A stretch of 64,000 bases of DNA, taken from Planotetraspora mira (lineage in GTDB: Bacteria > Actinomycetota > Actinomycetes > Streptosporangiales > Streptosporangiaceae). How positions within the stretch are numbered: the stretch's first letter is position 1; every line of letters begins with the position of its first letter. Of the stretch, positions 36,921 through 40,282 are shown one piece after another. The translations under genes were made by a program, and so were the position numbers. The stretch covers positions 248,001-312,000 of the forward strand of contig NZ_BOOO01000019.1 of NCBI RefSeq assembly GCF_016863275.1, written 5' to 3'. The notes beneath the pieces were generated by a model that made no database searches, had not been told where the DNA came from, and saw only the letters and a program-made list of their open reading frames with translations.

Positions 36921-37574
36921 TCAGGGTTCGATGAGGCCCGCTCGGATGGCGTAGCGGGTCAGTTCGAGCCGGTCGCGCATGCCGAGTTTCTGCAAGATGT
37001 TCGCGCGGTGCCGGTCGACCGTCTTCACGCTGATGAACAACATCTCGGCGATCCGTTTCGCGGAGTTCCCCTCGGCGATGAGCTTGACGATCTCTTCCTC
37101 GCGTGGGGTGAGGATGGTGTCGGGTAGGCGCTCTCCCTGCCGGTCGCGGGCCAGGTAGTCGCGGATGAGGGCGGTGATCGCGCCCGGATAGAGGAACGGT
37201 TCGCCGCGCATCGCGGCGCGGCAGGCCTCCAGGAGGTCCCGGTCGGCGACCGACTTGAGCACGTAGCCCGAAGCTCCCGCCTTGAGAGATTCGAAGAAGT
37301 ACTGCTCGTTGTCGTACATCGACAGGATCAGGATGCGGATGCCGGGCGCCCGTCTGGTGATCTCGCGGGCGGCCTGAATCCCGGTCATCCGCGGCATCGC
37401 GACGTCCAGAATCGCCAGATCGACCTGATCGGGAGAAGCGGCCTCCACAGCCTCGGCGCCGTCGGCCGCCTCCGCGACGACCGTGAGGTCGGGTTCCGCC
37501 TCGAGGATCAGCCGCAGCCCACGCCGGACCAGTGCGTGATCATCTGCCAGCAGGATCCGTGTTATCGACGACAC
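36921..37574 (-). CDS. NarL/LuxR-type response regulator
   Basis: This 217-residue protein has a receiver domain (RILLADDHALVRRG, phospho-acceptor Asp in LAILDVAMPRMTG, Lys in GYVLKSVADRD) and a C-terminal LuxR HTH (LTPREEEIVKLIAEGNSAKR, then IAEMLFISVKTVDRHRANIL). It starts 4 bases after the histidine kinase stop and so is co-transcribed with it. Its probable targets are the divergent SPFH/CBS/transporter genes (inference). Confidence 0.93.
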   Translation of the reverse strand: MSSITRILLADDHALVRRGLRLILEAEPDLTVVAEAADGAEAVEAASPDQVDLAILDVAMPRMTGIQAAREITRRAPGIRILILSMYDNEQYFFESLKAGASGYVLKSVADRDLLEACRAAMRGEPFLYPGAITALIRDYLARDRQGERLPDTILTPREEEIVKLIAEGNSAKRIAEMLFISVKTVDRHRANILQKLGMRDRLELTRYAIRAGLIEP

Positions 37575-37578
37575 CCGT

Positions 37579-38595
37579 TCACCTCCCGCTCGTCGTGCCG
37601 GGGACGACCAGGCACACCTGGGTGCCGCCCCCGGGTGGGGAGGTGATGGTCAGGCGGGCGCCGATGAGCAGGGCCCGTTCGCGCATGCCGCGGATCCCCG
37701 CTCCTTCGCGGACCACGCCGCCCTTCCCGTTGTCCGTGATCCGCAGTCTCAGCGCGTCGCGCCCGGCCACGAGCGACAGTTCCACCCGCGTGGCGCCGGC
37801 GTGCCTGGCGATGTTGGTGAGGCTCTCCTGGGTGATCCGATAGAGGACCAGTTCGGTGTCACTGCTCAAGCCTGGCAGGTCCGGATCGACCTCTCGGATG
37901 ACCGGAATCGCGCTGACCTGAGAGAAGTCGTGACACAGGGCGCTGAGGGCGCTGTGCAGCCCGAGGTCCTCCAAAACGCCCGGGCGCAGCCTGCGCCCGA
38001 CCTGCCGCACCTCGTCGAGGCTGTCGCGGACCGTCTCCTGGACCGAGTGGAGCTCGTCACGTAGATCGGCGGGCGCCCGGTCGATCACCCGCTTGAGGCC
38101 CAGGAGCACCACGGTGAGGCCCTGGCCGACCTCGTCGTGCAGTTCTTGCGCGATGCGCCGGCGTTCTCCCTCCTGGGCGGCCAGCGCGTGGGCGCTGCTC
38201 TCACTGCGCTCGGCCTCGAGCCGGTCGAGCATCGCGTTGAACGTGTCGATCAAGTGATCGAGATCGCCGTTGCCGCTTTCGGTGAGCCGGTCGCCGGCCC
38301 GCAGCAGATCGACCCGCTGCATCAGCGAGGCGAGCGCGTCGAGCGGCGCGAGACTGGTGCGCACCAGCATCGCGTTGGCGGCCAGGATCAGCACCAGCCC
38401 GATCAGCAGGACCGACACCTCGGTCAGCAGGACCGGTGAGGACACGGTGGCGGGAGACAGCGCCAGCACGAGCGTCCCGATCGCGAACACCAACCCGTTG
38501 ATCACGAACAGCCGCCGGAACAGCGGTCCCGCCGGGGTGCGCGCGGGCGGCCCGGCTCGCTGCCCGATGCTCCGCTGATCGGTGCCGTCGCTCAT
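37579..38595 (-). CDS. Sensor histidine kinase (NarX/LiaS-like, HisKA_3)
   Basis: This protein of about 338 residues starts at ATG 38595, which has GAGG 8 bases upstream; starts at 38631 and 38640 are alternatives. Two membrane segments (FVINGLVFAIGTLVLAL and EVSVLLIGLVLILAANAML) are separated by only a short extracytoplasmic loop. HAMP follows, then HisKA_3 with the phospho-His in RRIAQELHDEVGQGL, and the HATPase with SLTNIARHAGA and ITDNGKGG. The tiny outside loop suggests it senses the membrane itself or a signal within it. Its partner is the response regulator directly downstream. Confidence 0.92.
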   Translation of the reverse strand: MSDGTDQRSIGQRAGPPARTPAGPLFRRLFVINGLVFAIGTLVLALSPATVSSPVLLTEVSVLLIGLVLILAANAMLVRTSLAPLDALASLMQRVDLLRAGDRLTESGNGDLDHLIDTFNAMLDRLEAERSESSAHALAAQEGERRRIAQELHDEVGQGLTVVLLGLKRVIDRAPADLRDELHSVQETVRDSLDEVRQVGRRLRPGVLEDLGLHSALSALCHDFSQVSAIPVIREVDPDLPGLSSDTELVLYRITQESLTNIARHAGATRVELSLVAGRDALRLRITDNGKGGVVREGAGIRGMRERALLIGARLTITSPPGGGTQVCLVVPGTTSGR

Positions 38596-38775
38596 CTTCT
38601 CAGCCTCATCGTCGCCGAAATGTCTGTCCATGGGAGTCATCACCCATATCCGCATGCCGTCCCTCCATGTATGCCCCGGCCGAGATGGGTGCAGGACCCG
38701 ATAGGAAAACGGCTTTGACCTGCGGAGACTTGAAGCAGGCAAGCGCCGGTCCGTGACAGGAGGAGGGAGGAGAGC

Positions 38776-39384
38776 GTGATCGTCACCAGTACGCACGGGC
38801 TTGTGGGCGCTCCCATGACCGCCGGAGTGCCACAGGTGGGGGCCATCGCGATCAGCCTGATCCTGGCCGCCGTCGCGGCTCACGCCTTCAGGTTCGTCCG
38901 AAGCGGCCATCGGCTGGTGGTGTTCCGGCCCGGTCGCCCCGCGATCGTCAAAGGCCCGGGTCTCGTCCTCGTACTGCCCGGCCTCGATCGTGCGGTCCGG
39001 GTCCCGTTGGGACCGGACCTTGTCGACCTGCCGTGGATCGAGGCCGTCACCCGGGACGGCGCGATGGTGACCGTCAACGGCGCCGTGCTGACATCGGTGC
39101 GGGATCCGGTCTCCTATGCCCGGAGCATGCCGCCGCCGCGGAGCCGGACGGCCGCGGAGGCGGAGACCGTGATCCGCGGGTACGTCGCGAAACGCGATCT
39201 GGCGGACCTGTCACACCTGTCGAGGGTCGACCTGCTCGTCTTGGCGGCCGAGATCGGTCACCACACCCGCGACTGGGGTGTCGAGGCGACGCGTATCGAG
39301 ATCTCCCGTGTGGAGGTTCAGCTCACGCAGGGTCCCGCCGACGAGGTGCCGGCCCGGTCCGCGACGGCACGGCTCACGCCGTGA
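38776..39384 (+). CDS. SPFH/Band 7 (stomatin-like) membrane protein, short form
   Basis: This 202-residue protein starts at GTG 38776 preceded by GGAGGGAGGAGAGC, an extended ribosome site. One N-terminal hydrophobic segment ([16 protein letters not shown]) is followed by a Band 7 core: [24 protein letters not shown], written as [18 protein letters not shown], then [19 protein letters not shown] and [14 protein letters not shown]. The core is shorter than typical slipins (about 250 residues) and lacks the C-terminal coiled coil. SPFH proteins scaffold membrane microdomains and often pair with proteases or transporters. Here it is divergent from a two-component system and leads a CBS/transporter operon. 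Confidence 0.78.
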
Positions 39385-39434
39385 TCAGCGGTTTCCACCC
39401 GCACCCGGAATCCAGGAATGGAGGCGTCATCCAC

Positions 39435-39515
39435 ATGGACATGATCCGCGGCACCGTCCCCCGCGCCGGGACGGTGCGACACCGCTTCGCCGACCACACC
39501 GTGCGGGCGCCGTGA
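39435..39515 (+). CDS. Small ORF (26 codons), candidate leader peptide upstream of CBS gene
   Basis: ATG at 39435 is preceded by TGGAGGCGTCATCCAC and encodes 26 residues ending VRAP-UGA. It begins 51 bases after the SPFH stop and ends 44 bases before the CBS gene. The start context is nearly the same as that of the small ORF at 40139. It is too short for confidence by coding statistics; the evidence is the ribosome site, its position and the shared context. Confidence 0.35.
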
Positions 39516-39559
39516 CCGCGCCCTGGACGGCCCGTCGCTCCGGACAACGGGATGGTGCA

Positions 39560-40018
39560 ATGCAAGCTCGCGATATCGCCGTGAATCTGCCGACGGTGAC
39601 CGTCCGCGACCCAGTGATCAAAGCGGTGCGGGTGATGGTGGTGGGCCGCCTGCCGGGACTGATCGTCGTGGACGGCCGGGGGCGACCCCGGATGGTCCTC
39701 CCCGGCACTCAGGTGCTGCGTCTCGCCCTGCCCGGTTCCTACCAGGAGGATCCGGCGCTGGCCCGGACGGTCGACGAAGCGCATGCCGACCTGTTCTGGC
39801 AGGAACTGGGCGGCCTCACCGTGGCGGACTGCCTGCCGCATCAGCCGGCCCGGCCGGTGACGGTGCCGGTCGACGCGACCCTTCTCGAGGTGGCCGCACT
39901 CATGGCGCGTCTGCGCAGCCCGATCGTCGCGGTCGTCGACGACGACGGTGCGCTGTTCGGCACGATCACCCTGGAACGGCTTCTCACCAGCCTGGCGGTC
40001 GAAGGCCCCGGCGGCTGA
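39560..40018 (+). CDS. CBS-domain protein
   Basis: This 152-residue protein contains a pair of CBS motifs: [20 protein letters not shown] with [15 protein letters not shown], and [17 protein letters not shown] with [21 protein letters not shown] pairs bind adenine nucleotides or sense ionic strength and often regulate transporters or channels. The ribosome site is weak (GGGATGG). It sits between an SPFH protein and an ion transporter, suggesting it regulates transport (inference). Confidence 0.88.
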
Positions 40019-40138
40019 GAGCCCGCCGGGCGGGAGATCCGGCGCGGCCGGATCCGCCGCGTCACCGCCGCGGACGCCCGTGATCGTCCTCGCTCCGCCC
40101 GGCCGCTTCACCATGTCCGCTGTCTGGAGGTCATTCAC

Positions 40139-40282
40139 ATGTACCGCTCGTACGCTTCGCTCGCCGGCCGCGCACGGCGACCACGGCCCGGCATGACGCC
40201 GTCGACCGCCGCCCGTCCACGCCCGAACGCGGGACGTCTCCCGGCCCGTACTCCCGGCACGTCACCGGGACCCGGCCCATGA
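40139..40282 (+). CDS. Small Arg/Pro-rich ORF (47 codons) overlapping the transporter start
   Basis: ATG at 40139 has TGGAGG 8 bases upstream and encodes 47 residues with 10 Pro and 9 Arg, ending PGPGP-UGA. Its stop overlaps the ATG of the transporter (ATGA), so transporter translation is probably coupled to it. Proline-rich leaders that stall ribosomes are known upstream of ion transporters, for example MgtL. Pro-UGA endings are known to stall in TnaC. The peptide is not similar to anything I recognise. Confidence 0.45.
   Translation: MYRSYASLAGRARRPRPGMTPSTAARPRPNAGRLPARTPGTSPGPGP

Follow-up and report, generated by a model that had tools for sequence, protein, structure and literature searches.

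The DNA analysed in this study is a stretch of 64,000 nucleotides from Planotetraspora mira, hereafter called the window. It includes an operon in which genes for an SPFH protein, a CBS-domain protein and a transporter of the ArsB/NhaD/CitMHS superfamily are accompanied by two small ORFs, here named ORF1 and ORF2 (Table 1). A first-pass annotation made from the sequence alone had described both ORFs and all three protein types. The two ORFs are present as described, and domain searches confirmed the SPFH, CBS and CitMHS/ArsB-type assignments. The transporter scored under every NCBIfam cut-off, with MamN as the best match (204.6 of 500 bits). No close transporter orthologue is found at E ≤ 1e-150 in four compared species of the same genus, and the locus is patchy within that genus.

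The operon is bordered by divergent genes encoding a sensor histidine kinase and a response regulator. Orthologues of the regulator share 70–90% identity in most relatives, where it is conserved as a divergent neighbour, and the kinase gene likewise has divergently placed orthologues next to the operon in most of them. The true start of the kinase gene is probably nearer to position 38630 than to the start of the longest ORF. Between the kinase gene and the operon there is an inverted repeat resembling ATGGGTGnnnGACCCGAT, which is present in about half of the named relatives and is a candidate operator for the NarL-type regulator.

Table 1. Features of the transporter operon and its divergent neighbours in the window
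Feature	Position	Strand	Basis or remark
NarL/LuxR-type response regulator	36921..37574	-	Divergent neighbour; Pfam Response_reg and GerE
Sensor histidine kinase (HAMP, HisKA_3)	37579..38910	-	Longest ORF; Pfam
ATGGGTGCAGGACCCGAT, inverted-repeat-like element between kinase and operon	38685..38702	.	Pattern scan of relatives
SPFH / Band_7 protein, 202 aa	38776..39384	+	Pfam Band_7, E 7.9e-14
Shine-Dalgarno GGAGG of ORF1	39420..39424	+	Anti-SD duplex −9.3 kcal/mol
ORF1, 26 codons, 5′ stump of a ~90-aa gene	39435..39515	+	UGA overlaps CBS GTG; nucleotide and HMM match
CBS-domain protein, most likely start GTG 39512	39512..40018	+	Pfam CBS; start recurs in relatives
Shine-Dalgarno GGAGG of ORF2	40126..40130	+	Anti-SD duplex −10.0 kcal/mol
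ORF2, 47 codons, conserved leader-ORF family member	40139..40282	+	Derived end TSPGPGP-stop versus GPPGxxx-stop in relatives
ATGA, transporter start on ORF2 stop	40279..40282	+	Poor SD upstream, −4.0 kcal/mol
ArsB/NhaD/CitMHS superfamily transporter, 428 aa	40279..41565	+	Pfam CitMHS 9.9e-89, ArsB 2.5e-19

The CBS gene most likely starts at the GTG given in the table, 16 codons upstream of the methionine at 39560, because a start at −16 codons and an extension of the form ...RDGA-M recur in relatives. With this start, the UGA of ORF1 overlaps the start of the CBS gene (GTGA) in the same way that the stop codon of ORF2 overlaps the transporter start. The first-pass annotation had noted the latter overlap and the proline that precedes UGA in each ORF, and both statements were borne out.

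ORF1 and the gene between SPFH and CBS

In many relatives, the interval between the SPFH and CBS genes is occupied by a conserved gene for a protein of ~90 amino acids that contains MDITRTTVPGTGTVHHF...DEADQVAEVLHSRPIADRLAELERRLAEITG and also carries DEADQVAEVLHS after MDITRTTVPGTGTVHHF. This protein has no match among Pfam or NCBIfam families, and its gene often overlaps the CBS gene by the same four nucleotides. When aligned start to start with this gene, the first 20 codons of ORF1 reach an identity of 41/60 nucleotides, the best of 89,533 windows (mean 18). In addition, a profile built from 18 members of the ~90-aa family ranks ORF1 first among the 1,216 ORFs of the window, with residues 1–19 aligned to 1–19 (E 0.065 for the 1,216-ORF database, or about 5e-5 for a single pre-specified target). 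Because of these start-to-start nucleotide and profile matches, we identify ORF1 as the 5′ stump of the ~90-aa gene, left by a deletion, rather than as a leader peptide. Two other origins were considered and rejected. Alignments of ORF1 to two Acrocarpospora loci, in which it would represent a detached CBS start, are not significant. Derivation from the C-terminal part of the ~90-aa gene yields a weak profile score, although one at the top of a small null, and the N-terminal match is decisive. ORF1 probably still hands ribosomes to the CBS gene, as suggested by its strong Shine-Dalgarno (SD) sequence (−9.3 kcal/mol) and the near absence of one at the CBS start (−2.5 kcal/mol).

The translation starts of ORF1 and ORF2 had been described as nearly identical, and this holds for the window, where they read TGGAGGCGTCATCCACATG and TGGAGGTCATTCACATG. 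Across the 9.0-Mb genome, the pattern TGGAGGN0-4TCATYCACATG has exactly two matches, both at this locus, and a scan of related loci gave no match. A duplication as the source of the twin context was rejected, given its lack of conservation in relatives and a similarity between the ORF1 and ORF2 regions that is not significant (20 of 300 shuffles are as good). The two Pro-UGA ends are likewise unremarkable, as proline precedes the stop codon at 21 of 108 (19%) four-nucleotide overlaps of long ORFs with SD sequences in these genomes. Such ends are ordinary at gene overlaps of this kind in actinomycetes and are by themselves no ground for calling the ORFs arrest peptides. What does exceed chance at this locus, on comparison with relatives, is the conservation of ORF2.

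An upstream ORF family at the transporter start

To the named loci we added orthologues from the family and the class, which yielded 136 non-redundant loci with a transporter identity of at least 65%. Upstream ORFs (uORFs) were chosen by SD sequence and start codon alone, never by their ends. A small ORF with a strong SD sequence is present in 52 of the 136 loci; one of these is spurious, and the other 51 were analysed. In the relatives that carry it, the uORF stop codon overlaps the transporter start by four nucleotides ([AGT]TGA). The uORFs span 9 to 50 codons, many of them 9–30, and the body of the peptide is variable. Their ends, however, are not. GPPG occupies codons −7 to −4, followed by three codons and the stop, in 36 of the 51 uORFs, and Pro-Pro is present at codons −6 and −5 in 41, compared with 0.42% and 2.1%, respectively, upstream of arbitrary [AG]TGA sites within these loci. 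Only five of the 51 have proline at −1. Where the gap between the CBS and transporter genes is at least 60 nucleotides, all 35 starts of the form GGAGG..[AG]TG lie in the overlap frame. The same end is also seen in 17 other loci whose start is weaker or non-standard.

The element is found in Streptosporangiales, in Pseudonocardiales (Saccharothrix, Umezawaea, Actinophytocola and Lentzea pudingi) and in Virgisporangium, and Flexivirga has a variant NNPPG form of the end. The uORF is missing from about half of the orthologues, and most loci in which the CBS and transporter genes nearly touch have neither uORF nor motif. Presence of the uORF changes 13 times on a transporter tree with 135 tips. 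One genome has two transporter copies (contigs 43 and 77), each with its own GPPG uORF. At several loci, strong GC-rich hairpins of differing sequence are located just past the CBS stop codon and before the uORF SD sequence; these might be partial terminators or mRNA-stability elements.

Genome-wide controls consisted of pattern scans together with fetched loci. Scans of 151 genomes recovered 14 transporter uORFs with other matches scattered, and a frame-shifted control pattern, one base longer, gave no matches at the transporter in the genome scans. We also considered whether the GPPG uORF is a general device, but rejected this notion, since matches elsewhere in the 151 genomes were at background level, with occasional pairs in closely related genomes and no clear recurrent second gene.

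The relatedness of the genomes makes simple probabilities optimistic, and codon constraint was therefore assessed by parsimony on the transporter tree, using the 51 uORFs that are free of end-based choice. The Gly-Pro codons (−7 and −6) show 13 changes at first and second positions versus 23 at third positions, whereas the unconstrained codons (−12 to −10) show 89 versus 37 (Fisher p = 3e-4 for the comparison). The trend is the same in a 68-locus set, which includes 17 loci picked partly for Pro-Pro (15:33 versus 123:53). Codons −5 and −4 (CCG GGG) show constraint at every position, as expected given that GGGG also serves as the weak SD sequence of the transporter. These patterns argue that Gly-Pro is under purifying selection at the peptide level, beyond what RNA alone would impose, and that Pro-Pro-Gly is a feature of the family with constraint on the protein. 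RNAalifold detected no consensus structure around the transporter start. The first-pass annotation had called for conservation of both ORFs in relatives and for a codon-level comparison; ORF2 passes on both counts, and relatives offer no counterpart of ORF1 as a leader.

The two translation starts differ strongly in quality. GGAGG precedes the uORF start in 48 of the 51 loci and an SD sequence precedes the transporter start in three, with mean anti-SD energies of −9.9 and −5.6 kcal/mol, respectively. The uORF start is also predicted to be more accessible (unpaired probability 0.43 versus 0.27, p = 3e-8), a gap that may partly reflect local GC content. The window follows this arrangement, combining the stop/start overlap with a strong uORF SD sequence and a weak transporter SD sequence (Table 1). 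The second proline codon is located 14 nucleotides upstream of the transporter start codon in 57 of 60 cases.

Pro-Pro-Gly is absent from ORF2 of the window, which ends in SPGPGP-stop. Viewed against its relatives, the Pro-UGA end is a derived trait. GPPG has been lost from this copy, and a Pro-Pro-Gly pause therefore cannot be claimed for the window genome. By analogy with the arrest known at NSP-stop and NAP-stop elsewhere (PMC10987492), a pause at the stop codon of this ORF2 is possible, but one genome cannot show it. Other lineages have diverged as well. In one genus (g33), the ORF is kept as MPTVPLVRPG-stop without Pro-Pro, and in Lentzea pudingi and Umezawaea the diproline has moved, giving ends of GPP-stop and PGPP-stop.

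Another genus (g69) lacks ATG or GTG at the expected spacing of its uORF. In 10 of 10 genomes, the codon about eight nucleotides past GGAGG is ATT or ATC (GGAGGTTCCGATC-ATT-CAC-CGC), which suggests a non-canonical, IF3-sensitive start. For comparison, Streptomyces sigR has a GTC start (PMC5472188).

Probable translational coupling and a putative diproline pause

From the conservation, frame, codon constraint, SD asymmetry and geometry of the uORFs, we infer that they are translated, that they are coupled to the transporter gene, and that a ribosome pause within them affects its translation. Specifically, we estimate a probability of roughly two in three that the ORF2 family comprises cis-acting leader ORFs that couple transporter translation, with a Pro-Pro-Gly pause setting the passage of ribosomes in most relatives. 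Coupling is the likely part of this reading, and the diproline pause as a throttle is plausible. Ribosomes would load at the strong GGAGG of the uORF and make a short peptide in which the sequence of the body is unimportant. Termination at the UGA located on the transporter start would then permit reinitiation at ATGA. Presumably, the transporter relies on these handed-over ribosomes because its own ribosome site is weak and less accessible. A ribosome with the second proline in its P-site and glycine in its A-site would have its P-site codon 14 nucleotides upstream of the transporter start, so that the leading edge of a paused ribosome would rest on that start codon. The pause, relieved by EF-P, might thus set both the speed of ribosome passage and the time for which new initiation is blocked. 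In the window, coupling would be kept while Pro-Pro-Gly has been swapped for Pro-Gly-Pro-Gly-Pro-stop.

EF-P is encoded in the window genome, and Pro-Pro-Gly is a standard EF-P-dependent motif, at which ribosomes pause with glycine in the A-site when the factor is missing (PMC4140641). GPPG may cause only a mild pause, because few PPX motifs in E. coli pause measurably without EF-P (2.8%; PMC4140641) and AGPP served as an arrest-defective control elsewhere (PMC12992588). Tentatively, and with rather more doubt than confidence, we extend the proposal to its regulatory consequence. If the GPPG pause parks the leading edge on the transporter start, transporter synthesis would follow the capacity for diproline translation (EF-P and charged tRNA-Pro), and translation capacity would thus gate an ion/anion transporter in Actinobacteria. 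The genus with AUU/AUC starts would add control by IF3, and some lineages would have swapped Pro-Pro-Gly for Pro-Pro-stop or Gly-Pro-stop. If the pause is real, the spacing of the diproline motif places the leading edge of the ribosome on the start of the next gene, a compact means of regulation that selection has maintained at a single transporter in several actinobacterial orders. Such a device would also provide a natural test of whether EF-P-dependent pauses act as regulators or are tolerated costs.

Another possibility, which we consider unlikely but worth serious weight, is that these uORFs are plain translational couplers, in which GPPG has no pausing role and is a by-product of the weak transporter SD sequence (CCGGGG). 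Constraint on all three positions of CCG GGG is what an SD sequence would produce, both the window and genus g33 keep the ORF without Pro-Pro, and leader ORFs near starts are common in Actinobacteria, where they have been proposed to aid reinitiation (PMC4833913). However, Gly-Pro at −7 and −6 is upstream of the SD sequence, with third positions free and first and second positions nearly fixed. Moreover, loci that lack the uORF and have a GGGG SD sequence do not keep GPP, whereas the GPP-stop, PGPP-stop and NNPPG members keep diproline at other distances. The same freedom at third positions, together with the 35 of 35 starts in frame and the lack of an RNAalifold consensus, makes it very improbable that the conserved block is an RNA element (a hairpin or protein site) with an incidental reading frame, even though the motif keeps a constant spacing to the start codon and shows partial nucleotide conservation.

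It is also improbable that the family consists of nascent-chain arrest peptides of the RAPP/RGPP or SecM (R-x-G-P) class that stall strongly in response to a specific cue. RAPP/RGPP peptides (ApdA, ApdP, CruR and a Streptomyces lividans set; PMC10987492, PMC12992588, PMC9426467) are likewise encoded by small ORFs upstream of a regulated gene, with a diproline near the C-terminus and a variable body, and those of S. lividans precede diverse genes (PMC12992588). Also, R[T/S/A]GPPG in some uORFs contains the R-A-G-P of SecM, and arginine is present at −9 in 25 of the 51. In RAPP/RGPP peptides, however, arginine directly before A/G-P-P is essential, and most of these peptides carry localisation signals and resist EF-P. 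Neither R, Q nor H directly precedes A/G-P-P in ORF2 of the window, and in most of the 51 GPP is preceded by T, A or S; AGPP is the arginine-mutant, arrest-defective control in the RAPP/RGPP work (PMC12992588). SecM has a different downstream gene, and its FxxxxWIxxxxGIRAGP arrest sequence is not visible in ORF2 or its relatives; RAGPPG occurs in some members, with RAGP confined to a minority and arginine not conserved in the family. In members of 9–13 codons, only a short stretch of nascent chain would occupy the tunnel, and no upstream element is conserved.

The original proposal, that ORF1 and ORF2 are a pair of true Pro-UGA leader peptides that respond to an ion or metabolite, now has very little probability left. 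In its favour, each ORF has a Pro-UGA end, and their common start context is seen nowhere else in the genome; arrest peptides with NSP-stop and NAP-stop ends are known, and PMC10987492 lists RAP-stop among its motifs. The remnant status of ORF1 largely refutes the proposal for that ORF, and proline before the stop is frequent background and rare at −1 in the family. Nothing found points to sensing of an ion or metabolite: the uORFs vary in their body, and members may be as short as 9–13 codons. Two elements of the proposal are supported. ORF2 is conserved, constrained at the codon level and positioned so that it could control synthesis of the transporter, and a ribosome pause based on proline is the natural reading of the conserved family end, although the diagnostic feature is GPPG three codons before the stop rather than Pro-UGA.

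Relation to known leader ORFs and pause sites

The comparisons that had been drawn with TnaC, RAP-type peptides and the leaders of MgtA did not hold, as the defining features of these systems are missing here. The mgtL, mgtP and TnaC leaders are linked to proline, as is the ORF2 family. However, they are 5′ leaders that act on transcription elongation, and TnaC additionally depends on Trp12 and free tryptophan. ORF2 lies between cistrons and runs into the start of the transporter gene instead of occupying a 5′ UTR, and neither ORF1 nor ORF2 contains tryptophan, such that only the Pro-UGA end matches TnaC.

The Pro-Pro-Gly motif itself is shared with EF-P-dependent PPG/PPX pauses, such as that of AtpD (PMC4140641). 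Those pauses occur within coding sequences, whereas in the ORF2 family the motif has a fixed place in a leader ORF that overlaps the regulated start.

Our literature search found no paper describing a transporter uORF of the ORF2 type. The closest counterpart is mgtQ of the Salmonella mgtCBRU operon, which is likewise a short ORF with a strong SD sequence; it sits in a long gap between cistrons and promotes translation of the transporter gene downstream, and its residues are thought to affect the translating ribosome (PMC8092293). It differs in having eight codons, destabilisation by Asp/Glu and alternative RNA hairpins, as well as in its occurrence in Enterobacterales, its unrelated sequence, and the lack of a conserved GPPG end or a described stop/start overlap (PMC8092293). 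By analogy, the ORF2 family might work most like mgtQ, but through another effect on the ribosome and with coupling by overlap.
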